A DNA stretch of 64,000 nt from Hyphococcus sp. Lineage in GTDB: Bacteria > Pseudomonadota > Alphaproteobacteria > Caulobacterales > Parvularculaceae. Position numbers and translations under genes: made by a program. The stretch is from assembly GCA_028284345.1 (NCBI GenBank), contig JANQRY010000010.1, positions 248,001 to 312,000 on the forward strand, written 5' to 3'. Shown piece by piece: positions 3,048-36,749 of this stretch (its first letter is position 1; each line of letters begins with the position of its first letter). Below the pieces are notes generated by a model. The model was not told the DNA's origin, did not search any database, and worked only from the letters and a program-made list of their open reading frames with translations.

Positions 3048-3503
3048 TCACCATTTCGTCAGCCGTTCCTTGAAATAGGCGAAGAGATCGTTCTCTGACA
3101 ATTGGGTCAATTCTTTGTCGAATACGCCAATAAATTTTTGCGTTACTTCGGGCGCCAACTTCTTTCTGATCTCGCCTAGCGCGCGCGGCGGCAGAGCAAG
3201 GACAAGTTGATCGAAACGCCGATCCTTGTTCGCAGCGTTCAGTTCCGCGGCAAGCGCGCGAAGAAAGTCGTCTTCCAGATCTTCGTCAAGCGTCGGCGCG
3301 CCCATGGCAAAGCGCGCGCCCGAACCCGTCTTCCGACCGCGGCCGGGCCGCTCGCTCCCGAGTTCGCGGGCTGTCTTGCGCGCGTTCCTGACTTCATCCG
3401 TATCGATCAGCGTCCATGGCTTTTTGCTGCCGAAACTCTCGAACAACCGCATGCGGGAACCATCAGCGATCAGAAACCAAGTTGTCCTTCGCGGCGTGAG
3501 CAT
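3048..3503 (-). CDS. Host attachment family protein
   Basis: 151 residues from the chosen ATG, which has the purine-rich site GAAAGGAG about 11 bases upstream; the frame runs 20 codons further up without a better signal. The opening (TWFLIADGSRMRLFES) and the segment FDQLVLALPPRALGEIRKKL match the pattern of the 'protein required for attachment to host cells' family, whose fold resembles eRF1/pelota-type nucleic-acid-associated domains. The biochemical function is not established for the family. A TTGACTTGCATCAA box lies 67 bases upstream of the start, placing the gene in the local FNR/FixK-type regulon. A stress role is an inference from that context. Confidence 0.82.
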   Translation of the reverse strand: MLTPRRTTWFLIADGSRMRLFESFGSKKPWTLIDTDEVRNARKTARELGSERPGRGRKTGSGARFAMGAPTLDEDLEDDFLRALAAELNAANKDRRFDQLVLALPPRALGEIRKKLAPEVTQKFIGVFDKELTQLSENDLFAYFKERLTKW

Positions 3504-3563: not shown

Positions 3564-3577
3564 TTGACTTGCATCAA
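3564..3577 (-). promoter_or_regulatory. FNR/FixK-type box upstream of the host-attachment gene
   Basis: TTGACTTGCATCAA fits TTGAY-N4-RTCAA. Its centre is about 67 bases from the start codon at 3503. If it sits at -41.5 like a class II activator site, transcription starts near 3529 and leaves a leader of about 26 bases. Confidence 0.6.
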
Positions 3578-3784
3578 CGCTGAAACGCCAAATCGGGCGT
3601 AGACGAATGCTATCGAATACCGCTGATTGCGAGCCTCGTCATGACGAAGAAAATCTGTCTACAGCAGGACCATCCGCATAGCGATCCTTTGCGCCTTTGC
3701 CGCGCCCTGACGGACGCGAAAAAGGAGGCGCACATTGCCAATGGCTAGGGTGCGCCGCCATTCGGACCCTGCGCCGTAAGCGCC

Positions 3785-5038
3785 ATGCCCGTCAGCGACC
3801 TCACATCGATCTACCAACTCGCCATTGCGCTCGCCCTTGGCCTTGTGATCGGGGTCGAGCGCGAATGGCGCGAGCGGGACTTCAAGGGCGGTCGCCGCCC
3901 AGCGGGCCTGCGCACTTTCGGGCTCATCGGACTGAGCGGGGGCGTCGCCGGTCTGATCGGCGATCAGTACGCGCTTTTTCCAGCCATGGGACTCGTCCTG
4001 ACGTTTATCGCCATGACCGCCGCCTATTGGCGTCGCTCGCAAAATGGCAATCTCATGGGCGTGACGACAATATTCGCAACGATGATCGCTTACGGTTGCG
4101 GCGTCCTTGCCGTCATGAATCTGCAGGTTCCCGCGACCGCCGCGGCCGTAACCGTCGCCATGATTTTGGGCGCCAAGGACCGTCTTCATCGTTTCGTGGA
4201 ACGACTGGAGCAAAAAGAAATCTTCGCCGCGCTTCAGTTCATTCTGATCGCCGGCGTCATCCTTCCCCTCATTCCGAATAGATCGATCGGCCCCTATGAG
4301 GCTATAAATCCATTCGAAATCTGGCTCATGGTCGTGCTGATCAGCGGCCTGTCTTTCCTCGGCTACGTCGCGCTGCAGGCATTGGGCGCGAAACAAGGAA
4401 TTATCAGCACCGCGCTGCTCGGAGGCCTCGTGTCGTCCACGGCGACGACGGTCTCTCTTGCCCGGATGGCGCGACGTCAACCTGAGCTGAAGGCCGTTCT
4501 CAGCGTTGGCGTTATTGCCGCCTCCACCATTATGTTTGTCAGGGTCTGCATTATCGCCGGCGTGATATCGCCGGCGTTGCTTCTTCAGATTCTTCTTCCG
4601 ATTAGCATAGTCATTTTTATATCAGCGGCAGGCGCAATCTACTATTCGCAGCAATTTCGCCAACTGACGTTCAGCAAACCGACGGTTTCCAATCCGCTGG
4701 ATATCGCCTCTGCGCTTCTTTTTGCGGCGTTGCTGGGCCTGATTATGGTCGGATCGCGAGCGCTGGAAGGGATGTTTGGCGCTGAAGGCGTTTACGCGCT
4801 CTCCGTGGCCTCCGGCCTTGCCGACGTCGACGCCATCACATTGACGCTCAGCCGGTTTTCTACGGAAAGTCTGGCGACGCGTGTCGCCGCCACCGGCATT
4901 ATGTTGGCCGCGATCACAAATACGCTGGTGAAAATTGCGCTCGCCGCATTCGCAAGCGGCGGCGCTCTACGGCTTGCTTTTGTCGTATTGTCCGCGGCCA
5001 GCGTTGCAGGCGGCGTTGCAGTCTATTTCGCTGTCTAA
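3785..5038 (+). CDS. MgtC/SapB-DUF4010 family membrane protein
   Basis: 417 residues, almost wholly hydrophobic with about 11-13 membrane segments. The N-terminal part carries the MgtC-type signature GLVIGVEREWRER at about residues 18-30 and GLRTFGLIGLSGGV at 41-54. The C-terminal half matches the DUF4010 region (GLVSSTATTVSLARMAR, about 217-233, and SGLADVDAITLTLSR). MgtC-like proteins are inner-membrane factors in Mg2+ limitation and survival, but the long MgtC-DUF4010 form has no firm function. No clear ribosome binding site precedes the ATG, and no FNR-type box was seen upstream, unlike its neighbours. It converges with the BON gene. Confidence 0.85.
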   Translation: MPVSDLTSIYQLAIALALGLVIGVEREWRERDFKGGRRPAGLRTFGLIGLSGGVAGLIGDQYALFPAMGLVLTFIAMTAAYWRRSQNGNLMGVTTIFATMIAYGCGVLAVMNLQVPATAAAVTVAMILGAKDRLHRFVERLEQKEIFAALQFILIAGVILPLIPNRSIGPYEAINPFEIWLMVVLISGLSFLGYVALQALGAKQGIISTALLGGLVSSTATTVSLARMARRQPELKAVLSVGVIAASTIMFVRVCIIAGVISPALLLQILLPISIVIFISAAGAIYYSQQFRQLTFSKPTVSNPLDIASALLFAALLGLIMVGSRALEGMFGAEGVYALSVASGLADVDAITLTLSRFSTESLATRVAATGIMLAAITNTLVKIALAAFASGGALRLAFVVLSAASVAGGVAVYFAV

Positions 5039-5104
5039 TGACACTGAGGTCTTGGCGCGAAACGCCGATCGCGACACCGCGGCCGGCGCTTCGCTCTCTC
5101 CCCC

Positions 5105-5755
5105 TTACGCAACGCGCAAATTGTCTACGACCTGCGTAACGCCCGGCGCGGCCCAAACGGCGTCTTCGACAAGTTTACGTTCGTACCAGGCTTTTACGTT
5201 GCCGCTGAGCGTAACCTTGCCGCCGCTGACGTCAACCTGCACGTGAGAGGATTCAAGATCGGCGTTGCGGTGCAAAGCGCGATTGATTTCTTTCGAAACA
5301 TCGGACTTCGCCACCCGCGGTTTCACATTGATCAAATTACTGACCGCCGTCACGCCGAGAACACTGGAAATCTGGTTGCGTGCAACTTCGCGCTGATAGT
5401 TCCAGTCAACATCGCCGGTCAGGGTGACATATCCGTCTCGCACCTCCGCTTTAACGGTATCGCGCGGGATAGACGTATTCCACTCAATAATGTTAGCAAT
5501 GCGTTTGGCGATTTCTTCGTCGGACACCGTCCTATCGGACGGATATTTGACTTTCATCTCTTCCGCGATGGCGTAAACGCCTTTCACCCTTTTGGCGGCG
5601 CGCTCAGCCGCCAGCTTTTCTGAAAAGCTGCCAACCGTTCCGGCCAGCGTAACGGCGCCGTTTTTGACGGTCACGCCGACCTCTGTCGACTCAATCTGCG
5701 GTTCCCAATCTATTTCAGCAAGGATGTCGTCCCTAATGTCTTCATCCGTCCTCAT
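5105..5755 (-). CDS. Triple BON-domain protein (OsmY-like)
   Basis: 216 residues forming three BON repeats at about 4-72, 78-146 and 150-216. Each has the pattern of a glycine-rich strand such as GAVTLAGTVG, GYVTLTGDV or GKVTLSGNV, followed by a helix and a V-x-x-V-x-N/D-x-L strand. No signal peptide is visible, so a cytoplasmic location is possible, unlike exported OsmY. BON domains bind phospholipid or other ligands and are common in osmotic and general stress proteins. AAGGAGG lies 6 bases before the ATG. An FNR/FixK-type box is centred 67 bases upstream, inside the last codons of the hemerythrin gene, so this gene probably has its own promoter. Confidence 0.92.
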   Translation of the reverse strand: MRTDEDIRDDILAEIDWEPQIESTEVGVTVKNGAVTLAGTVGSFSEKLAAERAAKRVKGVYAIAEEMKVKYPSDRTVSDEEIAKRIANIIEWNTSIPRDTVKAEVRDGYVTLTGDVDWNYQREVARNQISSVLGVTAVSNLINVKPRVAKSDVSKEINRALHRNADLESSHVQVDVSGGKVTLSGNVKAWYERKLVEDAVWAAPGVTQVVDNLRVA

Positions 5756-5812
5756 GTCGGTCCTCCTTATCCTGACGGGAATGACAGTATATAGTTGAAG
5801 GGCAGCGGGGCC

Positions 5813-6382
5813 TCATTGACGCATGTCAATGGCGCCGCCGACCTCATGAGATCTGAACTCGTTGATAACGCTCTTGTAAGCGCGAAGCTCCTCGGCGAGT
5901 TCGCGCCAGTCATCCTCCATCAGATGACGGCGAAGCAAGGGGGTAAGAACACGCTCATCGGCCTTGATCGTCGTTCTTGCGTGGGCTGCATAGTCGGCCA
6001 TCGCTTGCTGGAGGCTTTGCCGTCTGCCTTTTGACGGTTTATCGAGTTCTGAAACGAGCCGCTCCCTGGCGCTGCGCATGGCGGCGTGCTGTTCATCGAT
6101 ATCGAGAACGGAGGGCAAATATCGCCCGCTCCTGAACCAGGCGCGGCGATAGGCTTTTCTTTCCAGAATGTGATGGAAATCGTCTGGCGCATCAATGAAT
6201 TGATCGACGGCCGATACGACGAAATCTTTTCCGAACATGGTTGGACCGCTCTCCGAGAGCTGCGCTTCCAAACGCTCAATGCAAGCGTTGGCCTTCTTGT
6301 GATCGCGCGCCCAATGTCGGAGAACATACGCTGCGGAAGCTGACGGACCAACACGAGATCGTCTTTCGATTGACCCTGACAT
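5813..6382 (-). CDS. Hemerythrin-like HHE domain protein
   Basis: 189 residues, mostly helical. Candidate iron ligands are His23 and His28 (RHWARDH), the DFHHILERK segment, DEQHAAM, YAAHARTTIKADE and LLRRHLMEDDW, an H...HxxxE...H...HxxxE/H order as in bacterial hemerythrins. Such proteins bind O2 or NO at a di-iron centre and act in oxygen sensing or iron and nitrosative stress. It begins 6 bases after the stop of the 63-aa gene, so both form one operon driven by the perfect TTGATCATGATCAA box. A redox- or NO-related role fits the FNR-type control. Confidence 0.85.
   Translation of the reverse strand: MSGSIERRSRVGPSASAAYVLRHWARDHKKANACIERLEAQLSESGPTMFGKDFVVSAVDQFIDAPDDFHHILERKAYRRAWFRSGRYLPSVLDIDEQHAAMRSARERLVSELDKPSKGRRQSLQQAMADYAAHARTTIKADERVLTPLLRRHLMEDDWRELAEELRAYKSVINEFRSHEVGGAIDMRQ
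5816..5829 (-). promoter_or_regulatory. FNR/FixK-type box for the BON gene
   Basis: TTGACGCATGTCAA has perfect TTGAC/GTCAA arms. It overlaps the last codons of the hemerythrin gene and is centred 67 bases from the BON start at 5755, the same spacing as at the host-attachment gene. Confidence 0.65.
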
Positions 6383-6388
6383 AACGCA

Positions 6389-6580
6389 TCATCCGCTCAT
6401 ATAGTCGATCGGATACTCATACTGCCGAATACGTTCCAGAATACGCGTCCAGTTCCGCTCATTCTCGGCGTCGCCTTCCTGACGGCTTTCTTCAACTTTG
6501 CGGAGCGCCCGCAAAGACGCGTCGCCGCCCCACGCCATCATGTTCAGGGCCTCGATTTTTATCTTTTCTGGTGAGAACAT
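6389..6580 (-). CDS. Small 63-aa protein, first gene of the hemerythrin operon
   Basis: 63 residues from the ATG preceded by GGAGGAAACG, a strong ribosome binding site; an 18-codon upstream extension lacks one. The protein is highly charged, with Trp at two places and a Tyr-rich end (QYEYPIDYMSG). It has no membrane segment or recognised domain. Its leader position, 6 bases from the hemerythrin gene and about 60 bases below a perfect FNR-type palindrome, suggests a strongly induced low-oxygen protein, perhaps a partner of the hemerythrin. That function is an inference from position only. Confidence 0.72.
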   Translation of the reverse strand: MFSPEKIKIEALNMMAWGGDASLRALRKVEESRQEGDAENERNWTRILERIRQYEYPIDYMSG

Positions 6581-6633
6581 CGTTTCCTCCGTTTTTTGGA
6601 AGAAAATAAAACGGGCGCTATTCCCGATTTGCA

Positions 6634-6647
6634 TTGATCATGATCAA
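6634..6647 (-). promoter_or_regulatory. Perfect FNR/FixK box, 63-aa-hemerythrin operon
   Basis: TTGATCATGATCAA is a perfect 14-base palindrome matching the FNR/Anr/FixK consensus TTGAT-N4-ATCAA. It is centred 60 bases upstream of the ATG at 6580, giving a predicted transcript start near 6599 for a -41.5 site. Confidence 0.78.
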
Positions 6648-6669
6648 GCGGGCGTCACCTGACGGGAAT

Positions 6670-6897
6670 TTAATCGCCGGGAACGTTCATCAATTTTTTG
6701 GAAGACTTGATTCGCAGAAAGCGCACAAGCCAGCCGGCAACGAATCCAACGGCGAAGCTTGCGAGAATAACGACCGACAGATGCGGCCTTAACACCCAGA
6801 ACAGGACCGCTACGTCAATGCGCGCCATATTCTGCAATGTGAACAGAGTGACGATAACGGCGATCGCAAGCAGAAGCCATTTATAGAACGCTTTCAT
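6670..6897 (-). CDS. LapA-like (DUF1049) small inner-membrane protein
   Basis: 75 residues with two membrane helices (about 5-25 and 35-60) joined by a short loop, and a basic tail (RFLRIKSSKK) on the cytoplasmic side. The pattern of TLQNMARIDVAVLFW and VVILASFAVGFVAGWL is that of the LapA/DUF1049 family, which in enterobacteria takes part in LPS assembly control. GGAGGGTCGCC precedes the ATG. Its FNR-type box is back to back with the box of the divergent P-type ATPase. Confidence 0.8.
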   Translation of the reverse strand: MKAFYKWLLLAIAVIVTLFTLQNMARIDVAVLFWVLRPHLSVVILASFAVGFVAGWLVRFLRIKSSKKLMNVPGD

Positions 6898-6942
6898 GGC
6901 GACCCTCCTGCGACAAGAAAAACGCGACTGTCACAACATGCA

Positions 6943-6956
6943 TTGATCTGAATCAG
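6943..6956 (-). promoter_or_regulatory. FNR/FixK-type box for the LapA-like gene
   Basis: TTGATCTGAATCAG differs from the consensus in the last base only. It is centred 52 bases from the start at 6897. A -41.5 site would start the transcript near 6908, just ahead of the ribosome binding site. Confidence 0.6.
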
Positions 6957-6997
6957 TTGCAGCCCGAGCGCGATTGACGTCAGGTCTGAGGTTGTCG

Positions 6998-7011
6998 TTG
7001 ACCCCAGTCAA
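6998..7011 (+). promoter_or_regulatory. FNR/FixK-type box for the P-type ATPase
   Basis: TTGACCCCAGTCAA has perfect TTGAC/GTCAA arms. It is centred about 69 bases from the ATG at 7073 and predicts a transcript start near 7046. It lies inside the longest possible frame (start 6974), which argues that the upstream starts are not used. Confidence 0.62.
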
Positions 7012-7072
7012 AGCGGATTTCGGCGAAGCCAATATGAACGTGGTCTCGCCCAGAGACAGTCAAAGAATTTTC

Positions 7073-9814
7073 ATGACCATAGAGCCGACCAAGCCCTGGC
7101 ACGCCATGACAGCGAACGAAGCGTTCGCAGCTTTAGGCGCGCGGCCGGAAGGGTTAAGCGCAGTTGACGCCGATACCCGTCTCAACAAGCATGGCCCCAA
7201 TCAGCTCCCGGAGACCGGGCGTCATTCGCGCCTGCTCATTGTCCTCCGGCAATGCAACAATCCGCTTTCGCTGATCCTTTTTGTCGCGACTGTCGTCTCA
7301 TTTGCGCTGGGTGAAAATACTGACGGGTTTTTCATTTTACTTGTCGTCGTCATCAATGTGACGGTCGGCGCATTCCAGGAATGGCGCGCAGAGGCGAGCG
7401 CTGCTTCCCTGAAAAAGACCCTGCGCATCTCGCCGACCATTATTCGCGGCGGCGCTCGCCGTAAAATCGATATCACTGAGATCGTTCCGGGCGATATTGT
7501 CAGCCTGGAATCAGGCGTTGTCGTGCCCGCCGACATACGACTTTCGGCGGCCCATGATCTCAAAATCGATGAGTCGCTGCTTACCGGCGAGTCGAAACCG
7601 GTTGAAAAAGAGCCGGACGGTCAGTGCGAACCGGAAGCGCCGCTCGGCGATCGGATCAACATGGCCTATGCGGGGGCGATGGTGACCGCAGGCCGCGGGA
7701 CCGGCGTTGTTTGCGCCACGGCGGCGAACACGGAGCTTGGCGGCATCGCGCAAGCGCTGGCGGGGCGCGGCGGCCGGCCGCCTCTGCTTGTTCGGATGGA
7801 GACCTTTACGGCCTGGATCGCCGTTGTGACGGTCTTGATCACGCTTCTGTTGGGCGCGGGTCAGTATTTACGCGGCGTCGGGCTCAGCGAGGTCTTTCTG
7901 CTGACGGCCGCGCTTGCGGTGTCCGCCATTCCTGAGGGCCTGCCGATTGCGATCACCGTTGCACTTTCGGTCGCATCAAGCCGCATGGGCAAACGCAACG
8001 TGATTGTGCGCAGCCTACCCGCTGTTGAAGCTCTGGGCTCATGCACGCTGATCGCTGCCGACAAGACGGGAACCCTTACGGCCAACCGTCTGACAATAAA
8101 GAGAATCATACTTGCGGGCGGAGAAGAAATTGACATCGAGGGCGAGGGCCTTGAACTAGAGGGCGAGGCGCGTCTCGCTAACGGCGAGATCGTTCCCGAA
8201 GAAACGCAAAAGCGCGTCGAGCATCTCATCATCACCGGCGCGCTGACCAACGAGGCCGATCTCGTCGTCAACAACGGCGCTGTGGAAGCGCGCGGCGATG
8301 CTGTCGATATCGCGTTTCTTATCCTGGCCATAAAAACTGGGTACGATAGAGAAGCGCTTCTCAATCAATACAACGAACGGAGCGCCATCCCCTACGAGCC
8401 CGACAACGGATTTTCCGCCAGCCTTAATAGAAACGGCGACGGCTTGATCATTTCGGCAAAGGGCGCCCCCGAAGTTGTGTTGCCCATGTGTAAAAACGTT
8501 GACGCCAAAGCGACGGATCAACGCCTGCATCAATTGACGTCAAATGGCTATCGCGTGATTGCCCTTGCGCGCGGCGATCTTGCCTCTGAACCGTCCTCCT
8601 TCGCCGCTGACGACCTCAAAAACCTGGAGTTTCTGGGGTTTGTCGGCCTTATTGATCCGTTGCGCAGCGAGGCGCCGGAAGCCGTCTCGCAAGCCTGCGC
8701 CGCCGGCGTGGATATCCGGATGATAACAGGCGACCACCCGGAAACCGCGCTCGCGATTGCGCAACAATTGGGGCCGCAATGGGCGCCCGATACGGTCCTA
8801 ACCGGCGCGGCGCTGAAAAAGCTGGAGGGAGAAGAGCGCGCCGACGCGATCATGAAAACGCAAGTTTACGCGCGCGTGGAGCCGACCCAGAAAAATCTCA
8901 TCGTCGAAGAACTCCAGGGCCAGGGCCATTTCGTTGCGGTGACCGGCGACGGCGTGAATGACGCGCCGGCTTTGAAAACCGCCCATGTGGGCGTCGCCAT
9001 GGGCGCCGGCGGCACCGACGTCGCGCGCGCCGCATCGGACCTTATCATCACCGACGATAACTTCGCCTCCATTGTCGCCGGCATCGAAGAGGGCCGCGCC
9101 GCCTACGACAATATCCGTAAAATCGTCTGGCTTTTGATCAGCACGGCGATCACCGAAGTGATTGTCTTCACCCTGGCGCTGTTTGCCGGGCTGCCAGTGC
9201 CGCTCACCGCCGTTCAGATCCTTTGGCTCAATCTCGTAACGGAAGGCATACAGGACGTCGCCCTCGCCTTTGAAGGCAAGGAGCCTGACATCATGCGCCG
9301 CGCCCCGCGCAAACCCAAAGAGCCAATCTTCAACCGGCAAATGGTTGAGCAATGCCTGATTGTCGGCCTCTATATCGGCGTGCTCGCCTTCGCCCTCTTC
9401 TACTGGCTCTATGAAGCACAAGGATTGACAGAGGCGGAAGCTCGCAATCTCGTCCTCCTCTTCCTTGTTTCCTTCAACAATTTCCATACGCTGAACTGCC
9501 GATCGGAAACCCGGTCCGCTTTCGCGATACCGCTAAGCGCCAATCCGTTGCTGATCGCCAGCATCGCCGCCGCGCAAGGCCTTCATATCGCAGCGATGCA
9601 TATTCCATTGACGCAGCATGTGCTCGATGTGAACCCCGTCGCCATTCAGGAATGGGCCGGCGCGATCACGCTCGCTGCTTCCGTGTTCGTGCTGGGCGAA
9701 GCTTACAAGCTTCTTGTTTCCCGTCCGCGCGCCCGGCGCAACACGTCATTGGCGAACAACGCTCCGCAAACCGTTACGGCCGCACCGGCGGCTGCATCCA
9801 AAAAGGGAATTTGA
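7073..9814 (+). CDS. Cation-transporting P-type ATPase (P2/Ca2+-type)
   Basis: 913 residues from the chosen ATG. It has the full P-type set: TGES (about 171-174), PEGLP in the fourth helix, the phosphorylation motif DKTGTLT with Asp near 330, MITGDHPETA, and TGDGVNDAP near 624. There are about ten membrane segments. An N-terminal cation-ATPase domain (ANEAFAALG...GLSAVDADTRLNKHGPN) and PEGLP place it with the Ca2+/Na+-type P2 ATPases rather than heavy-metal pumps. The frame could start at 6974 or 7034, but the FNR-type box at 6998-7011 would then be coding, so the ATG after it is preferred even though its ribosome binding site is weak. The ion is not certain. CtpF of the mycobacterial DosR regulon is a functional parallel. 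Confidence 0.92.
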   Translation: MTIEPTKPWHAMTANEAFAALGARPEGLSAVDADTRLNKHGPNQLPETGRHSRLLIVLRQCNNPLSLILFVATVVSFALGENTDGFFILLVVVINVTVGAFQEWRAEASAASLKKTLRISPTIIRGGARRKIDITEIVPGDIVSLESGVVVPADIRLSAAHDLKIDESLLTGESKPVEKEPDGQCEPEAPLGDRINMAYAGAMVTAGRGTGVVCATAANTELGGIAQALAGRGGRPPLLVRMETFTAWIAVVTVLITLLLGAGQYLRGVGLSEVFLLTAALAVSAIPEGLPIAITVALSVASSRMGKRNVIVRSLPAVEALGSCTLIAADKTGTLTANRLTIKRIILAGGEEIDIEGEGLELEGEARLANGEIVPEETQKRVEHLIITGALTNEADLVVNNGAVEARGDAVDIAFLILAIKTGYDREALLNQYNERSAIPYEPDNGFSASLNRNGDGLIISAKGAPEVVLPMCKNVDAKATDQRLHQLTSNGYRVIALARGDLASEPSSFAADDLKNLEFLGFVGLIDPLRSEAPEAVSQACAAGVDIRMITGDHPETALAIAQQLGPQWAPDTVLTGAALKKLEGEERADAIMKTQVYARVEPTQKNLIVEELQGQGHFVAVTGDGVNDAPALKTAHVGVAMGAGGTDVARAASDLIITDDNFASIVAGIEEGRAAYDNIRKIVWLLISTAITEVIVFTLALFAGLPVPLTAVQILWLNLVTEGIQDVALAFEGKEPDIMRRAPRKPKEPIFNRQMVEQCLIVGLYIGVLAFALFYWLYEAQGLTEAEARNLVLLFLVSFNNFHTLNCRSETRSAFAIPLSANPLLIASIAAAQGLHIAAMHIPLTQHVLDVNPVAIQEWAGAITLAASVFVLGEAYKLLVSRPRARRNTSLANNAPQTVTAAPAAASKKGI

Positions 9815-9967
9815 TCCGGCTCAAGGAAATCGGGAGCGAACCTCGTATCCTGGCGCGCAGAGCGATGCGGCGAGGATATCATCGAGTCGTCAGAACAAAC
9901 CAAATCCGGACCCCGGTCCCCGTTCGCCGCCACGGGCGCGCAGCGAAGGCGATGGGTCGCTTTTCTT

Positions 9968-10930
9968 GTGGTCGGCCTCGCCGCTGTCGCAGCAATTGTT
10001 CTCGTCGTCCTCAATGTCGGCGACATCGGCGGCTTCGCGATACAGGCGGCGCGCGCAGAGCCCCGTTGGCTCGCTGCCGCCGCGGCGTCTCAGCTATTCA
10101 CCTACGCTTGCGTCGCCGCGGTGTGGAGCCGCATTCTTCAAAGCATGGGCTATTCAATCAGCCTATTGCGGCTATATCCGCTCGCGATCGCAAAAATGTT
10201 TTCCGATCAAGCCATTCCATCGGGCGGGGTCGCCGGCGCCGCATTTCTGTTCCACGCCCTCGGCCGCAGAAATGTTCCTTATAGCGACGCCTTCACCGTA
10301 TTCAGTTTCACAGCGATTACTTTTCTCGCGGCGTTCCTTGTCGCTGCGATGATCAGCCTGGCGGCGATTGCAACGATTGAAAATGCTTCGCCCGTTTTGT
10401 CGACGAGCATTGCGGCCTTCGCAGCCGTTGTGTTGTTTTTGGTGCTGTTTGTTTCGGCAATCCTTCTTGCGGGCATGAAGCCTCCGCCGGTAGTAAAAAG
10501 AATTCCCCGATACGAAAAAATTCGCGACTGGATTACAAGAACGGCAAAATTCGTGGCCGCGGAGCGTTATCTGTTTCTTGAAGCGACGCTCATCCACTTC
10601 ATTGTCCGCATATTCGACGGTTTGACTTTGTATCTGGTGTCTCTCGCCATTGGCGGTGACGCATCATACGCCGCCTGTTTTTTTGCCGTCGTCATTGCGT
10701 CAGTGGCGGCCACGATGGCGCCGACGCCGATGGGGCTCGGCACGTTCGAAGCCGGCATGATTGCAACGGTAAATATTTTCGGCGTTTCCATCGAAGACGC
10801 TCTCACGGCAACGCTGATATTCAGGGGATTATCTCTCTGGCTGCCTTTGATTCCGGGATTTTATATAATTCAGCGTGAAATTCTCAGCCAAAGCGCTCAA
10901 CCACGTTCAGCCGCATCCGCTATCGAATAA
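9968..10930 (+). CDS. Lysylphosphatidylglycerol synthase TM region/flippase-like membrane protein
   Basis: 320 residues from a GTG, with about 8 membrane helices. The motif IPSGGVAGAAFLFHALGRR (about 80-98) and APTPMGLGTFEAG (about 254-266) match the UPF0104/AglD-type membrane domain seen alone in many bacteria. No catalytic aminoacyl transfer domain follows. The start is uncertain. The frame is open back to the ATPase stop at 9814, and the first helix seems to begin before the GTG (RRRWVAFLVV), yet no ATG or good ribosome binding site lies in frame. The gene is in the same frame as the ATPase, separated only by that stop codon. A role in envelope lipid handling is an inference. Confidence 0.78.
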   Translation: MVGLAAVAAIVLVVLNVGDIGGFAIQAARAEPRWLAAAAASQLFTYACVAAVWSRILQSMGYSISLLRLYPLAIAKMFSDQAIPSGGVAGAAFLFHALGRRNVPYSDAFTVFSFTAITFLAAFLVAAMISLAAIATIENASPVLSTSIAAFAAVVLFLVLFVSAILLAGMKPPPVVKRIPRYEKIRDWITRTAKFVAAERYLFLEATLIHFIVRIFDGLTLYLVSLAIGGDASYAACFFAVVIASVAATMAPTPMGLGTFEAGMIATVNIFGVSIEDALTATLIFRGLSLWLPLIPGFYIIQREILSQSAQPRSAASAIE

Positions 10931-10940
10931 GGCCGCCATG

Positions 10941-10954
10941 TTGATCAAGATCAA
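10941..10954 (+). promoter_or_regulatory. FNR/FixK box for the CBS-domain gene
   Basis: TTGATCAAGATCAA matches the consensus with perfect TTGAT/ATCAA arms. It is centred 132 bases upstream of the chosen ATG at 11080, so a -41.5 site would give a leader of about 90 bases. It overlaps the region just after the flippase-like gene. Confidence 0.7.
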
Positions 10955-11079
10955 CGTGAAAAGCGTGGGCCGCCATTATGATTTCGGTCTCGGTACACTC
11001 AGCACACATCGTCTCACCGACGTCGGCGCTGCAGCTGACGTTTGGGGCGTAGACGATGACGCTAAACTGGAGAAAATTC

Positions 11080-11499
11080 ATGATGAAAGTCAAAGAAGCC
11101 ATGCATAGGAAAGCAGAGTGGCGCGATCCGTCGACGCCCGTATCCGAAATCGCAAAGCTCATGCAAGATGAAGACATCGGCGCCGTCCCGATTGGCGAAA
11201 ATGACCGGCTTATCGGCATGGTCACCGACCGGGACATCGCCCTGCGCGCGGTCGCCAATGGTGCAAACATCGCCAAAACGACGGCGAGGAACGTAATGTC
11301 GAAGGGCGTCGTTTACTGCAAAGAGGACGACAACATCGATGACGCCGTAGACCTGATGGAGGAAAAAGAACTTCGTCGCCTGCCCGTTATCGACGCCAAG
11401 AAACGGCTTGTCGGCATGTTGAGTCTGGGCGACATATCCCATGTTGCGGGACGCGAAGTGTCCGGAGAGCTTCTTCAATCAGTTTCGGCGCACCACTGA
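11080..11499 (+). CDS. Two-CBS-domain protein (Hrp1-like)
   Basis: 139 residues made of two CBS domains, about 1-62 and 68-132. Typical motifs are IGAVPIGENDRLIGMVTDRDI and LRRLPVIDAKKRLVGMLSLGDI. The ATG chosen has GGAG about 6 bases upstream; an ATG at 11056 gives 8 more residues but sits before that site. Stand-alone CBS pairs bind adenine nucleotides and sense energy state. Hypoxic response protein 1 of Mycobacterium tuberculosis has the same size and layout. A strong FNR-type box precedes the gene. Confidence 0.9.
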   Translation: MMKVKEAMHRKAEWRDPSTPVSEIAKLMQDEDIGAVPIGENDRLIGMVTDRDIALRAVANGANIAKTTARNVMSKGVVYCKEDDNIDDAVDLMEEKELRRLPVIDAKKRLVGMLSLGDISHVAGREVSGELLQSVSAHH

Positions 11500-11540
11500 G
11501 TGGGCTTGTGCAGGAGCGCTTTCCAACAAAAATTCATGAA

Positions 11541-11554
11541 TTGACGCGCGTCAA
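11541..11554 (+). promoter_or_regulatory. FNR/FixK-type box for the phosphoribosyltransferase gene
   Basis: TTGACGCGCGTCAA is the core of an 18-base perfect palindrome (AATT...AATT flanks). ATTCATGAA and TTCATGAAT lie on either side. It predicts a transcript start near 11589, leaving a leader of almost 200 bases before the ATG at 11785, unusually long for this set. Confidence 0.68.
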
Positions 11555-11784
11555 TTTCTTCATGAATATAAGCCATACTCTTGATACGCCGCAACGAGGA
11601 GCTGAACTGAAGAAACGTCATCGAGAATTATCCTTTGGATATGATCGATATCGGTAATGCATCAGGAACGCGACGAGCCGCTGCGACGGAGCCCGACGGC
11701 GTTTGGCGCGGAAGGCGTGGGCGGAGCCTTACGCCAAGCGACAACGCCTCGGGCTTTCCTTTCATTTCAGGAAGGCGAAAATCC

Positions 11785-12477
11785 ATGGTGAAATTTCAAA
11801 ATCGGGAACAAGCCGGCCGAATGTTGGCGAAAAAACTTGCGCGCTTCGCCGGACCGAACACCGTTGTTTACGCCCTGCCGCGCGGCGGCGTGCCGGTCGC
11901 CGCGCCGATCGCGGCGGCGCTTGGCGCGCCGCTGTCTCTCCTGTTCGTTCAGAAAATTGGCGCGCCAGCGCATTCCGAGTTGGCCATCGGCGCCATTGTC
12001 GATGGCGAAGATCCGACTCTGATCCGTCAGGATGACGTAATCAACGCCCTTAATGTAAGCGAACTCTACATCGCTGCGGAAAGCGAGGCGGCGCTTCCGG
12101 AAATTGAGCGCAGGAAGGCGCTTTATCGCGGATTGTATCCGCGCACGCCGCCGAACAAAAAAACAGCGATCATTGTCGACGATGGCCTGGCCACGGGCGC
12201 CAGCATGGAGGCGGCGATCAAAGCCGCCAAAAGGTCCGGAGCAAAAAGAGTCATCGCCGCGATTCCCGTCGGCCCACGCGAAACCGTATCGCGCCTAGGC
12301 AAACTCGTCGATGAAATCATCTGTATGAATACGCCGTCATCCTTCTGGTCGGTCAGTAAAAGCTACGATGACTTTCCACAGCTGGAAGACGCCGACGTTA
12401 TGGCGGTTTTGAACGAAGCGTCCCCGGAGAACGGCGAAAACGGGAAACGCCCCTGCCTCGTCAGAAGACGCGCCTGA
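11785..12477 (+). CDS. Phosphoribosyltransferase family protein
   Basis: 230 residues from the ATG with AGGAAGG about 9 bases ahead; the frame is open for 50 more codons without a start signal. The PRPP-binding loop VDDGLATGAS lies at about 131-140, after a long hydrophobic strand. FAGPNTVVYALPRGGVPVAAPIA at the N-terminus is characteristic of stand-alone PRT proteins found in stress regulons, here without a hydrolase partner. The substrate base is unknown. The equivalent domain occurs in Rv0571c of the DosR regulon. The 285 bases upstream hold only the FNR-type box and a GAGGAG-like purine run at about 11596-11602 with no obvious ORF. Confidence 0.87.
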   Translation: MVKFQNREQAGRMLAKKLARFAGPNTVVYALPRGGVPVAAPIAAALGAPLSLLFVQKIGAPAHSELAIGAIVDGEDPTLIRQDDVINALNVSELYIAAESEAALPEIERRKALYRGLYPRTPPNKKTAIIVDDGLATGASMEAAIKAAKRSGAKRVIAAIPVGPRETVSRLGKLVDEIICMNTPSSFWSVSKSYDDFPQLEDADVMAVLNEASPENGENGKRPCLVRRRA

Positions 12478-12500
12478 GCGCTGCTTCAGGGGCGCTCAAC

Positions 12501-12947
12501 TCAAAGCGTCACTTGTTCCGTATGCCCAAACCCCTTTGAGTAGTCGATAAGGGAAATTATTTTCGGATCGATGCGGTAAAGCGCCAGCTCGAATGTGTCG
12601 TCGGGGACGTAATTTTCCGCTTCCGGGAACTTCTTCATTATTAGCGCGCCGACTTTTTCAACCTCTTTCGGATCGGAAACCCGACTTGCAAGCGCGCCCA
12701 TCGACAGGCTACGGATCATCTGCCAGCTCTCATATTCGGGGTCGATTGTGATTGAGACCTTGTTGCTCGTCTCAATATTCTTCGCCTTTTGAGAATCAGC
12801 GGCGGTTCCAAAAAATATCGTCATGCCGTCATTGACGAAGCTGACAGTCGTCGCTTGCGGAAACCCGTCCTCGCGAACGGTGGCGATCGTCATGTCATCC
12901 GTATCCTCGATGGCGGATTTGATGAACTCTTCCTGTTCTTTGTCCAT
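12501..12947 (-). CDS. Pyridoxamine 5'-phosphate oxidase-like protein (general stress protein 26 family)
   Basis: 148 residues from the ATG preceded by AGGAGACAAAATC; the longer frame to 13016 has no such site and would run into the FNR-type box. The split-barrel pattern (TIATVREDGFPQATTVSFVNDGMTIFFGT, then KVSITIDPEYESWQMIRSLSM) is that of small flavin- or F420-type binding proteins annotated as general stress protein 26. Whether it has oxidase activity is unknown. It converges with the phosphoribosyltransferase; a GAGCGC/GCGCTC pair between them (12476-12497) may help termination. Confidence 0.88.
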   Translation of the reverse strand: MDKEQEEFIKSAIEDTDDMTIATVREDGFPQATTVSFVNDGMTIFFGTAADSQKAKNIETSNKVSITIDPEYESWQMIRSLSMGALASRVSDPKEVEKVGALIMKKFPEAENYVPDDTFELALYRIDPKIISLIDYSKGFGHTEQVTL

Positions 12948-13002
12948 GATTTTGTCTCCTTCGGCCGCCGACACAGCCGACACGAAGCGGGTTCCAACCT
13001 CA

Positions 13003-13016
13003 TTGACGCGCATCAA
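13003..13016 (-). promoter_or_regulatory. FNR/FixK-type box for the pyridoxamine-oxidase-like gene
   Basis: TTGACGCGCATCAA is centred 62 bases upstream of the start at 12947, predicting a transcript start near 12968 and a leader of about 20 bases. Confidence 0.65.
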
Positions 13017-13037
13017 CTTTCGCGCATCGGAAACCTT

Positions 13038-13051
13038 TTGACGTAGGTCAA
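13038..13051 (+). promoter_or_regulatory. FNR/FixK-type box for the polymer-forming-like gene
   Basis: TTGACGTAGGTCAA has perfect arms. It lies 22 bases from the box at 13003, serving the divergent gene. The centre is 88 bases upstream of the ATG at 13132. Confidence 0.63.
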
Positions 13052-13131: not shown

Positions 13132-14313
13132 ATGACAAAACAAAACCGAATGGTTGCGAGATGGATTTTATTTTTGCTGCTTCTGGCGGCGCTGCTCTTT
13201 GCAACCAGCGTCCTAAGGGCCCAGATTTCAACGCGCGCGGACGATACTATAGAAACCGGCGACGTCCTTCCCGATATGGCTTTCTTTTCGGCGGGCGACC
13301 TCAACGTCAGTGCAAAGTCGACCGACGATATTTTTGCTGCAGGCGGCGATGTTTCGTTAAACGAGGCGCAGGCGGATCATATGATCGCCGCAGGCGGCGA
13401 CATAACGATCACTGAGGTCGCCTTTCACGATCTCATCGTAGCGGGCGGCGACATCAATTTCGTCAGCGGCGTCATTACTGACGATGTTGTCGCTGCAGGG
13501 GGCGACCTCAAGATCGATCCGCAATTCAAGATTAAAGGCTCAGCCATGCTGACCGGCGGCGAGGTCGCCATTGACGCGCCCGTTGGCGCAGAGCTGCGCG
13601 CAGCCGCCGGGCGCCTGCGGCTCAATGCCGACGTCGCCGGTGATGCCCACCTCGTCGGCGAAAACGTCGCGATCGGACCGGATGTCATGATCGGCGGCGA
13701 CCTTCGTTATCGCGCGGAGGCGTTCGATATGGATCCGAGCGTCGTCGTTTCCGGCGAGATCATTGAACTTGAGCCCGCGACGCCCGATGTTGAGCGTTGG
13801 GGCGTTCAGGCCGCAGCGGCTCTAGCCGCCTTTGCTTTAGCGTTTTTGATCGGCTTGGCCATTCTCGTTATTGTTATCGCGCTGGTTCTGCCCGGACTGA
13901 TGAACAGCGCGGCGGATATGATCCGCACAAAGCCGTTGACGACATTAGGACTCGGGTTCCTCATCGTTGCAGCCGCACCTGTAGTCATCGCCATCCTCTT
14001 TGCAACAGTTCTTGGTATTCCGCTCGCGTTGATGATCGCCGCGATTTATATCGCCGCCGCTCCCCTCGCCATCGCAGCGTTCATCTACTACGCAGGCATG
14101 ATTGTACGGCGCTTGGTTTCAAATCCTGAATATGTTGCTCCAAGCGCGGCGTCTCGTATTGCCTGGACTGCCCTCGCCGCTGTTGCCCTGGTCTTACTCG
14201 GGCTCATCCCGATCGCTGGCGGCTTTTTCTGGCTTGTCGCCTACACGATTGGCATGGGCGCTGTCATGACTCGCGGCGGAAAGGCGCTGGCGTTACAGAG
14301 AGTCAACACTTAA
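13132..14313 (+). CDS. Polymer-forming (bactofilin-like) repeat protein with C-terminal membrane domain
   Basis: 393 residues from the ATG with GAAAGGGG upstream; a longer frame from 13105 lacks a site. A signal or anchor helix spans about 7-28. Then come repeats of a short beta pattern with AAGGD or similar every 16-20 residues (FAAGGDVSL, IAAGGDITI, VAGGDINF, VAAGGDLKI) to about residue 205, like a bactofilin-type beta helix. The rest is four or five membrane segments (about 225-390). The layout suggests an extracytoplasmic solenoid tethered to the inner membrane. The function is not known. It is the last FNR-boxed gene of the island. Confidence 0.78.
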   Translation: MTKQNRMVARWILFLLLLAALLFATSVLRAQISTRADDTIETGDVLPDMAFFSAGDLNVSAKSTDDIFAAGGDVSLNEAQADHMIAAGGDITITEVAFHDLIVAGGDINFVSGVITDDVVAAGGDLKIDPQFKIKGSAMLTGGEVAIDAPVGAELRAAAGRLRLNADVAGDAHLVGENVAIGPDVMIGGDLRYRAEAFDMDPSVVVSGEIIELEPATPDVERWGVQAAAALAAFALAFLIGLAILVIVIALVLPGLMNSAADMIRTKPLTTLGLGFLIVAAAPVVIAILFATVLGIPLALMIAAIYIAAAPLAIAAFIYYAGMIVRRLVSNPEYVAPSAASRIAWTALAAVALVLLGLIPIAGGFFWLVAYTIGMGAVMTRGGKALALQRVNT

Positions 14314-21133: not shown

Positions 21134-21209
21134 TGGTGCCGCAAGAGAGACTCGAACTCCCGACCCCCTGATTACAAATCAGGTGCTCTACCAGCTGAGC
21201 TATTGCGGC
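21134..21209 (-). tRNA. tRNA-Thr (UGU)
   Basis: 76 bases including an encoded CCA end. On the minus strand the acceptor GCCGCAA pairs with TTGCGGC. The D arm is AGCTCAGCTGGTAGAGC, the anticodon stem CTGAT/ATCAG encloses the loop TTTGTAA with anticodon TGT, and the T arm is GGGAGTTCGAGTCTCTC. All four arms fold. Confidence 0.97.
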
Positions 21210-22187: not shown

Positions 22188-23480
22188 CTAATCGCAGTCT
22201 TGCGCGAGACGCACGCCGGAGAACTGCCAGCGCGCATGCGCCGGGAAGAAATTGCGATAGGAGGCCCGCATATGCCCGGACGGGGTCGCGCAGGAACCGC
22301 CGCGCAGCACCATCTGACCGGACATGAACTTGCCGTTATATTCACCGACGGCTCCGGCCGGCGGCGCGTATTTCGGATAGGCCACATAGGCGCTGGCGGT
22401 CCATTCCCAGCAATCCCCGTAGAGTTGCGCGACGCGCGCATCAGCGGCGGCGCGCTGCGGTTCGCGCGGGCGCCCGCCGTCGCAGAAACGCCCCTCAATG
22501 GAAAACAGCGACGCGGCCGCCTCCCACTCAAACTCCGTCGGCAATCGCGCGCCGGCCCAATAGGCGTAGGCCGCCGCCTCATACTGGCTGATATGGCTCA
22601 CCGGCGCGTGCGGGTCGATCTCTTCTTCGCCGAACAGCGAAAAGCGCCGCCACGTCGCGCCGTCGCGTCGCCAGTAAAGCGGCGCGCGCCAGCCCTCGTG
22701 CTGAATGAGCGCCCAGGCGTCCGAAAGCCAGAGGGCGGGATTTTCGTAGGCGCCGTCTTCAATGAACTCGATAAACTCGCCATTGCTGACAAGACGATTG
22801 GCTAGCCTGAAGGGCTGCAGGAAAACCTTGTGGCGCGGGCCTTCATTGTCGAACGCAAAACCGTCGCCGTTCCAGCCGATATCGCAGAGGCCGCCTTCCA
22901 TCTCCTCAAACCGCAAGGCCACAGGCGCCGCCGCATCATCCGTGTCGGGACGTTCATAAGCCGCCGGACGCAGCGTGTTCTGGAACAGCGCATGCTTGAC
23001 GTCGGTCAGCAACAATTCCTGATGCTGTTCCTCATGCGCAAGGCCCAAGGCGATGAGCGGCGCAATCTGCGATACGACATCGTCCGGCGCGGCGTCGACG
23101 ATGGTTTCGACGGCGCGGTCCACATGCTCGCGATAGGCGCGGATGTCACTGGCGGCCGGGCGCGACAACAGCCCCCGCTCCGGGCGCGGATGCATCTTGC
23201 CGATCTGATTGTAGTAGGAATTGAAAAGATATCCGAATTTCGGGTGAAACTCCGCATAGTCCGGCGCGAACTTTTTCAGAATAAAGGTTTCGAAAAACCA
23301 GCTCGTATGAGCGAGATTCCATTTGACCGGGCTAGCGTCCGGCATGGACTGGAGCATCCAGTCTTCGGCGGACAAGGGATCGGCAAGCGCCAAGCTATGC
23401 GCGCGGGCCCGCCGGTATTGTTCCAGAATCGCAGCGCGATCGGCGAAAATCGGTGAGTCAAAGGCCATAGGCCCATGCAT
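22188..23480 (-). CDS. egtB: Ergothioneine biosynthesis sulfoxide synthase EgtB
   Basis: 430 residues. The N-terminal DinB-like half has the iron-ligand histidines in LAHTSWFFE and HEEQHQELL. The C-terminal formylglycine-generating-enzyme-like half ends in GGSCATPSGHMRASYRNFF. EgtB uses non-haem Fe(II) and O2 to join a cysteine-type thiol to hercynine. The start is open: the ATG at 23480 follows AAAGGA directly, while the ATG four codons later (23468) has a better spacing of about 12 bases. The histidine methyltransferase gene egtD, often adjacent, is not in the window. The gene is divergent from nadK. Confidence 0.9.
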   Translation of the reverse strand: MHGPMAFDSPIFADRAAILEQYRRARAHSLALADPLSAEDWMLQSMPDASPVKWNLAHTSWFFETFILKKFAPDYAEFHPKFGYLFNSYYNQIGKMHPRPERGLLSRPAASDIRAYREHVDRAVETIVDAAPDDVVSQIAPLIALGLAHEEQHQELLLTDVKHALFQNTLRPAAYERPDTDDAAAPVALRFEEMEGGLCDIGWNGDGFAFDNEGPRHKVFLQPFRLANRLVSNGEFIEFIEDGAYENPALWLSDAWALIQHEGWRAPLYWRRDGATWRRFSLFGEEEIDPHAPVSHISQYEAAAYAYWAGARLPTEFEWEAAASLFSIEGRFCDGGRPREPQRAAADARVAQLYGDCWEWTASAYVAYPKYAPPAGAVGEYNGKFMSGQMVLRGGSCATPSGHMRASYRNFFPAHARWQFSGVRLAQDCD

Positions 23481-36674: not shown

Positions 36675-36749
36675 GCCGCGGTAGCTCAGTGGTAGAGCGC
36701 ACCCTTGGTAAGGGTGAGGCCGAGAGTTCAATTCTCTCTCGCGGCACCA
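36675..36749 (+). tRNA. tRNA-Thr (GGU)
   Basis: 75 bases with an encoded CCA. Acceptor GCCGCGG/TCGCGGC, D arm TAGCTCAGTGGTAGAGC, anticodon stem ACCCT/AGGGT with loop TGGTAAG region giving anticodon GGT, and T arm GAGAGTTCAATTCTCTC. It is the second threonine tRNA in the window. Confidence 0.96.

Follow-up and report, generated by a model that had tools for sequence, protein, structure and literature searches.

A box-rich island beside fixLJK-like genes in Hyphococcus, a predicted low-oxygen survival regulon

Introduction

Low-oxygen survival regulons in Mycobacterium, Streptomyces, Burkholderia, Bradyrhizobium and Myxococcus draw on common gene families under differing regulators. In Bradyrhizobium diazoefficiens, which has a FixLJ-FixK2 cascade, phaC2 and the genes for host attachment, universal stress protein (USP), CBS, PNPOx and acetate kinase are expressed less in a fixK2 mutant, and boxes are listed for their transcription units (PMC9104804, PMC6515984). 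The lxa locus of Burkholderia, tied to anoxic persistence, is a contiguous low-oxygen locus with USPs, BON, a phosphate acetyl/butyryl transferase and a polyhydroxybutyrate (PHB)-type enzyme. USPs, PNPOx-like proteins and hemerythrin stand under a two-component system in the DosR/DevR regulon and in that of Streptomyces coelicolor OsdR, and the USP genes of S. coelicolor are mostly located close to osdRK (PMC5069765). NmpRSTU of Myxococcus xanthus joins a haem-dependent kinase cascade to CBS, USP, hemerythrin, cbb3 oxidase and P-type ATPase genes, and its regulatory site lies within an upstream gene, pilS (PMC11841059). In Caulobacterales, a FixJ-type palindrome controls fixK, which encodes a CRP/FNR regulator (PMC4999443). 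Here we analyze a 64-kb window of the marine alphaproteobacterium Hyphococcus sp. (the whole stretch C2:248001-312000 of a 3.41-Mb genome in 10 contigs; positions without a contig prefix are counted from its first base), in which a preliminary description had reported nine TTGAY-N4-RTCAA palindromes and had read them as a compact low-oxygen or NO-responsive stress regulon under one CRP/FNR-type regulator. Gene content, box clustering, promoter geometry and conservation lead us to conclude that the nine boxes are very probably sites from which FixK activates a self-contained island for survival at low oxygen, for which oxygen sensing, DNA binding, induction and physiology are predicted.

Results

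The boxes form the right-hand end of a 25-kb island

The window contains eight exact copies of TTGAYNNNNRTCAA, at 3564, 5816, 6634, 6998, 10941, 11541, 13003 and 13038, against an expectation of 0.21 from dinucleotide shuffles of the window, and none of 100 shuffles reached eight. The ninth box, at 6943 (TTGATCTGAATCAG), departs from TTGAY-N4-RTCAA by one mismatch. As described earlier, the rest of the window outside 3564-13051 is free of exact boxes; one-mismatch sites occur there at 22996, 30099, 40997, 55029 and 62461, and the last, the top-scoring of them, was discarded because it falls in a long ORF. Within the cluster, further one-mismatch sites lie at 5322, 9811 and 11080.

The whole genome holds 29 exact boxes, compared with four matches for a reversed-pattern control. 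Twelve of the 29 lie in C2:219042-261051 and 11 in the 25.3 kb of C2:235797-261051, henceforth the island, where boxes occur at 436 per Mb, compared with 5.3 per Mb in the rest of the genome, the island bounds having been picked from the sites themselves. The density called unusual in the preliminary description was therefore borne out genome-wide, and random placement of 29 sites never put 8 of them into 9.5 kb or 11 into 25.3 kb (0/20,000). The twelfth box, C2:219042, sits within an ORF that by eye encodes a cyclopropane-synthase-like protein. Beyond C2:219-261 kb, 14 of the 17 exact boxes fall within long ORFs (assigned by eye from a mechanical ORF list), so that chance sites do occur; the promoter-like boxes outside the island are C4:579643 (between FnrL-like and cytochrome-oxidase-like genes), C5:869376 and C7:752215. 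The cluster itself is real and the window boxes are the right-hand end of a larger 25-kb island that includes its own regulators, so the regulon reaches farther left than had been described.

A fixLJK-like cascade lies in the island

The gene for the single CRP/FNR-type regulator postulated earlier is predicted to be a fixK-like gene (C2 ~236854-237567, + strand; L019:6854-7567) located 10.4 kb left of the window, behind a fixL-like gene (C2:234389-235906, +) and a fixJ-like gene (C2 ~235884-236525, +) that overlaps the end of fixL. The best Protein Data Bank (PDB) matches of the FixL-like protein are FixL constructs. Its kinase part aligns with the FixL part of 4gcz and its PAS domain with the FixL haem-PAS chains 1dp6 (4.8e-25) and 1d06, which we take to be Bradyrhizobium- and Sinorhizobium-type FixL, and the segment LMPEPDRS-HD-Y, whose HD-Y histidine is presumably the haem ligand, is retained. 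The HATPase domain scores above the Pfam cut-off and HisKA slightly under it (26.1 vs 26.9). The protein is probably a haem-PAS kinase and a predicted oxygen sensor. The FixJ-like protein combines a receiver domain (PF00072) with a GerE/LuxR helix-turn-helix (HTH) domain (PF00196). For the FixK-like protein, the best PDB match is FixK2 (4i2o, 4.1e-28, vs 5.2e-12 for DNR) and the best NCBIfam match the Caulobacter FixK model NF050806.

Only two genes in the genome exceed the Pfam cut-offs for a Crp-type HTH, this fixK-like gene and an FnrL-like gene on C4; PF13545 gives 13 weaker matches, all under cut-off. An N-terminal [4Fe-4S] cysteine cluster was not found in 12 aligned island FixKs, some of which align without their N-terminus, and since FixK lacks the FNR iron-sulphur cysteines, low O2 through FixL is the likely input. 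The redox residue of FixK2 is Cys183, and the solved FixK2 chain is the C183S form (PMC9104804). Counting along the FixK/FixK2 alignment, with Leu195 as a check, we found at position 183 (the Ser of MSRRD) a serine in the island FixKs and an asparagine in one of the 12, and we therefore rejected Cys183 as a common redox switch. Instead, all 12 island FixKs carry a cysteine in the recognition helix (ETVCR; Cys198 of the alignment), at a position occupied by serine in FixK2 and in the FnrL-like protein. The same ETVCR cysteine also occurs in a different CRP-type regulator of genome G002 (L073).

Candidate FixJ sites and a box inside fixL

The gap between fixJ and fixK (L019:6526-6875) contains two motifs, TAMGTA-N4-TAMGTA and TAGGTATTCNNCCCAACT, which are kept to varying degree in 12 genomes, with 0-2 and 0-5 mismatches, respectively; because they were drawn from the very sequences compared, the shuffle comparison overstates their strength. 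They resemble the published FixJ sites GTAMGTAG and TAAGTAATTTCCCTTA (PMC4999443) and are likely FixJ sites.

One island box, C2:235797 (L019:5797-5810), falls within the final codons of fixL and precedes fixJ by about 80 bases. All eight genomes that keep the peptide IIDAHQ there invariably use the codons ATT, CAT and CAA, which overall account for 165/468 Ile, 83/124 His and 88/178 Gln codons in the aligned congener FixLs. A hexamer whose second base is A and whose sixth is T stands at offset 29 from the box in 8/8. The island congeners without IIDAHQ (G005, G009, G025 and G030) have no exact match at this place. Shared descent is uncorrected in this comparison, so the codon conservation suggests, and does not prove, a binding site under selection that would feed back on fixJ-fixK; the box may possibly serve as an internal promoter of the two genes. 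In G007, FixL (L069:11769-12902) matches in two pieces and query residues 139-249, the haem-PAS region, are missing, through either a deletion or an assembly error.

A -10-like hexamer stands 29 bases from the box centers

Activator promoters of class II in the CRP/FNR family have the box centered at -41.5. We aligned 12 island boxes, taken from 18 rows each oriented toward its gene; the rows excluded were those of the box before fixJ, of the second box before the USP gene, of both C4 readings and, for two boxes shared between genes, of the reverse reading. Scores for a -10-like hexamer are highest at 29 bases from the box center (3.40 vs a mean of 1.28 at the other offsets), as expected of a class II activator bound at -41.5. 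Neither 20,000 mononucleotide shuffles nor 20,000 random-offset draws reached this value, nor did any offset in 3,000 shuffles. Since the peak was seen before the island statistic was computed, an independent check was sought in orthologous promoters, and among 35 congener promoters with an exact box the peak is again at 29 (2.43; next 1.95). The geometric signal is strong for the island and modest beyond it.

Several boxes are conserved in congeners

The genus comprises 24 genomes including the one studied here, of which 12 have a FixK with at least 63% identity; some of the others are incomplete. A FixK match at 1e-12 was found in 24 of 40 genomes searched. We compared the stretches around fixK in 11 congeners, the stretch around the host-attachment gene (Hap) of G022, and G002. 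An orthologue was counted as box-bearing when an exact box lay at most 260 bases upstream, and genes whose match starts past query residue 25 were excluded, the ABC gene excepted. On this count, exact boxes precede Hap in 9/11, the USP gene in 7/9 and fixJ in 9/11 (seven of these at the fixL-internal place). For the window genes with fewer orthologues, the polymer-forming-like gene has its box in 3/3 (100.5-164.5 bases upstream), the second BON gene in 2/2, the second CBS gene in 1/1, the cation ATPase in 1/3, and the phosphoribosyltransferase in 1/3 with a one-mismatch box in another. Neighboring control genes mostly lack exact boxes (MgtC-like 0/5, LPG-TM 0/7, HlyD 0/7 with two one-mismatch sites, APH/AAA 0/5, fixL 1/9 and ABC 1/6).

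Upstream of fixK, a further control, none of six congeners has an exact box and one has a one-mismatch site. The first BON gene (cf. C2:246569) carries the one-mismatch form TTGAYMTAGCTCAA in 3/3, and the first CBS gene a similar form in 4/7. No box was found for PhaC, Pta or AckA, a count that rests on a single orthologue each owing to the start-residue filter, while the hemerythrin, 63-aa, LapA and PNPOx boxes have no counted orthologue and thus no footprint support. Two further close records (L077 and L082) show an exact box upstream of Hap. More distant Hap relatives (at most 42% identity; L085-L095, 10 of 11 testable) have an exact box in two cases (L092 and L093), a one-mismatch box in one (L094) and none in seven, so Hap is not generally under such a box.

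In G002 (L073, C7:172001-192000), which has no close fixK, seven exact boxes mark a similar island. It includes a different FixK-like gene, the gene of an OmpR-like response regulator (by eye) and one for a distant PAS kinase. Possibly the boxes were retained there while the regulator was replaced.

Genes and boxes of the window

The genes named in the preliminary description do have boxes upstream, six of them centered 52-69 bases from the start codon as it had stated (distances run from the box center to the most plausible start). Hap (3048..3503, - strand; Host_attach/baeRF_family12, PF10116, E=1.1e-29) has an exact box at 3564..3577 (-), centered 67.5 bases from its start. The same distance separates the exact box at 5816..5829 (-) from the start of a protein with three BON stretches (5105..5755, -; PF04972, E=1.4e-46). 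This box lies within the 3' end of the hemerythrin-like ORF (5813..6382, -; PF01814, 23.8 bits, slightly under the cut-off of 25.3, and no match in the NCBIfam search), yet upstream of BON. The hemerythrin-like gene is thus not directly behind a box of its own, being the second gene behind the exact box at 6634..6647 (-), which is centered 60.5 bases from ATG 6580 of a 63-aa gene (6389..6580, -) with a GGAGG-like ribosome site and no match in Pfam or NCBIfam searches. The one-mismatch box at 6943..6956 (-) is centered 52.5 bases from ATG 6897 of a small LapA-domain membrane protein (6670..6897, -; PF06305, E=1.3e-8).

On the opposite strand, the exact box at 6998..7011 (+) is centered 68.5 bases from the start of a P2-type (SPCA/SERCA-like) cation ATPase (7073..9814, +), identified by Pfam and by PDB Ca2+-ATPases (E=1e-134); its NCBIfam PMR1-type match is under that model's cut-off. 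An exact box at 10941..10954 (+), with TATGAT at offset 29, is centered 108.5-135.5 bases from the start of a protein with two CBS domains (11080..11499, +; PF00571, E=6.7e-27; PDB 9z6r, E=4.2e-24; Rv2626c, E=1.7e-17). Depending on the start chosen, the exact box at 11541..11554 (+) is centered about 90 or 237.5 bases from that of a phosphoribosyltransferase-domain protein (11785..12477, +, start uncertain; PF00156, E=7.2e-14). Two divergent exact boxes complete the cluster: 13003..13016 (-), centered 62.5 bases from ATG 12947 of a PNPOx-like flavin-fold protein (12501..12947, -; PF01243, E=7e-16), and 13038..13051 (+), centered 60.5 (GTG) or 87.5 (ATG) bases from the start of a polymer-forming-like membrane protein (13132..14313, +). 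The latter has a beta-solenoid-like N-terminal part, a FapA-like PF03961 match of 21.8 bits (cut-off 31) and no match in the NCBIfam search. The window also contains two tRNA-Thr genes, tgt and ggt, at 21134-21209 and 36675-36749.

The left part of the island

Left of the window, a series of genes lies on the strand opposite to fixLJK: APH/AAA (C2:237635-239155), USP (start C2:240051), AckA (named by eye, between USP and MaoC-Pta), MaoC-Pta (C2:241868-243256), PhaC (C2:243270-245222), the first CBS gene (C2:245376-245810) and the first BON gene (start C2:246491). An ABC exporter with an HlyD-like protein (by eye, +) runs into the window from the left. Exact boxes in this part lie at C2:235797, 240106 and 245366 and one-mismatch boxes at C2:240145 and 246569. 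Base composition gave no sign of horizontal acquisition (GC 57-58% inside vs 56-60% around), and a search of the 36 kb to the left of the window yielded no tRNA gene.

Weighing FixK against other activators

Several observations weigh against assigning the island to a FixL-FixJ-FixK cascade. The FixL-like protein reaches 362 bits where the NCBIfam equivalog model NF041777 (by name a Rhizobiales model) has its cut-off at 850, and the FixK-like protein 149 bits where NF050806 (by name a Caulobacter model) requires 300. The geometry weakens outside the island: without fixJ, fixL and ABC, the remaining 24 congener promoters score 2.14 at offset 28 and 2.12 at 29, a value reached by 47/20,000 random-offset draws, a 20-promoter subset scores slightly higher at offset 43 than at 29, and the oxidase-side box on C4 lacks a good hexamer at offset 29. 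The Hap genes of G009 and G031 have no box below two mismatches. Finally, the fetched congener stretches hold just part of each genome's exact boxes: G021 11/33, G002 7/25, G023 5/27, G003 4/25, G025 8/54, G020 7/51, G030 6/49, G006 4/34 and G022 4/51, besides G007 3/32, G009 1/24 and G005 0/14 on short or broken contigs. The concentration is therefore clearest in the genome of the window and in G021.

A further point is the FnrL-like gene on C4 (L021, C4:577600-581700), which encodes CX2CX7C plus further cysteines and stands between cytochrome-oxidase-like and hemN-like genes (both by eye); the side facing the oxidase gene bears a single exact box. The FNR, FixK and DNR motifs are virtually identical (PMC2908626), so that the FnrL-like protein would recognize the same motif as FixK, and that FixK acts at each box is inferred. 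In Sphingopyxis granuli, where fixK encodes the four cysteines, fnrN dominates fixK (PMC7713065). We nonetheless consider it improbable that the boxes are activated chiefly by the FnrL-like protein, whose cysteines are of [4Fe-4S] type and which would itself sense O2 or NO, with the island FixK secondary: the boxes gather around fixLJK rather than around FnrL, and in G031, which has only a distant FixK match (34% identity), Hap is box-less, a point tempered by G009, which keeps fixK and yet has a box-less Hap too.

Hemerythrin-like and PNPOx-like proteins are sometimes tied to NO or redox stress, and a Dnr/NnrR-type regulon for NO and denitrification would use an identical motif class. We think it very unlikely that the boxes belong to one, and we rejected NO/Dnr as direct input, since the FixK-like and FnrL-like genes alone pass the Crp-HTH cut-offs and the island FixK is far closer to FixK2 than to DNR; nor were denitrification genes seen in the island, though no genome-wide search for them was made. 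Of the two inputs named in the preliminary description, low oxygen is the likely one. That the boxes are chance palindromes or functionless descendants of duplicated promoters is scarcely credible: outer boxes do fall mostly in coding sequence and the BON and CBS genes each occur twice in the island, but shuffles, random placement, -10 geometry and conservation led us to reject chance, and spacers and flanks vary from box to box, so the boxes are not plain copies.

Discussion

In the FixK reading, which we prefer, O2 would leave the haem-PAS domain of the FixL-like kinase, which would then phosphorylate the FixJ-like response regulator. Phosphorylated FixJ would switch on fixK from the candidate conserved FixJ-type sites between the two genes, and FixK dimers on TTGAY-N4-RTCAA near -41.5 would recruit RNA polymerase as class II activators. 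To the left, FixK is predicted to induce genes for fermentative ATP (AckA and MaoC-Pta), carbon storage (PhaC), USP, CBS and BON; in the window, those for Hap, BON, the hemerythrin-like, LapA-like, cation ATPase, CBS, phosphoribosyltransferase, PNPOx-like and polymer-forming-like proteins. The output might allow cells to survive oxygen lack and re-emerge from it, and the FixK box in the 3' end of fixL would probably feed back on fixJ(K). More tentatively, the locus may be a one-locus module uniting fixLJK with many targets, in which FixK has a second redox gate unlike that of Bradyrhizobium and the fixL-internal box closes the fixJ-fixK loop, a combination that we regard as possible and rather doubtful.

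With cascade and many targets in one short stretch, the core set can be read from one locus and tested by deletion. Moreover, poorly understood families (host-attachment/baeRF12, BON, PNPOx-like and P2-type cation ATPase) come together in one predicted oxygen-controlled unit. Judging by titles and the opening of abstracts, and with most subscription journals outside coverage, none of the papers listed (8 of 736 in one search) had already described such an island, whether in this group or in connection with FixK.

Among measured systems, Bradyrhizobium FixK2 comes closest; in layout, the lxa locus does. In Bradyrhizobium, the host-attachment gene bll4645 and PNPOx each have a box at -69, the half-changed phaC2 box TTGATGCAGCTCAA recurs upstream of CBS in two congeners here, and the GCTCAA half of the TTGAYMTAGCTCAA-type boxes of the first BON and CBS genes recurs at Bradyrhizobium phaC2/CBS. 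Its targets, however, have scattered locus tags, whereas here many predicted targets adjoin fixLJK, and FixK2 Cys183 is replaced by Ser here, with a cysteine in the recognition helix instead. With lxa, the island has in common its contiguity and its USP/BON/Pta/PHA content; the candidate regulator BCAM0049 and the FixLJ homologues BCAL2210/2211 are placed elsewhere, PMC6127331 nowhere contains the word CBS, and the gene set is only partly common. The match of the window CBS protein to Rv2626c recalls DosR, but in the DosR and OsdR systems the response regulator itself binds the targets, at another motif and with no FixK step. NmpRSTU differs in its NtrC-like regulator, scattered targets and copper-kind ATPase, and the accessible account of Caulobacterales fixLJK (PMC4999443) describes no stress island beside these genes. 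The kind of system is thus known, and it varies here in its compact arrangement with its own regulators, in the box within fixL and in the cysteine of the FixK recognition helix.

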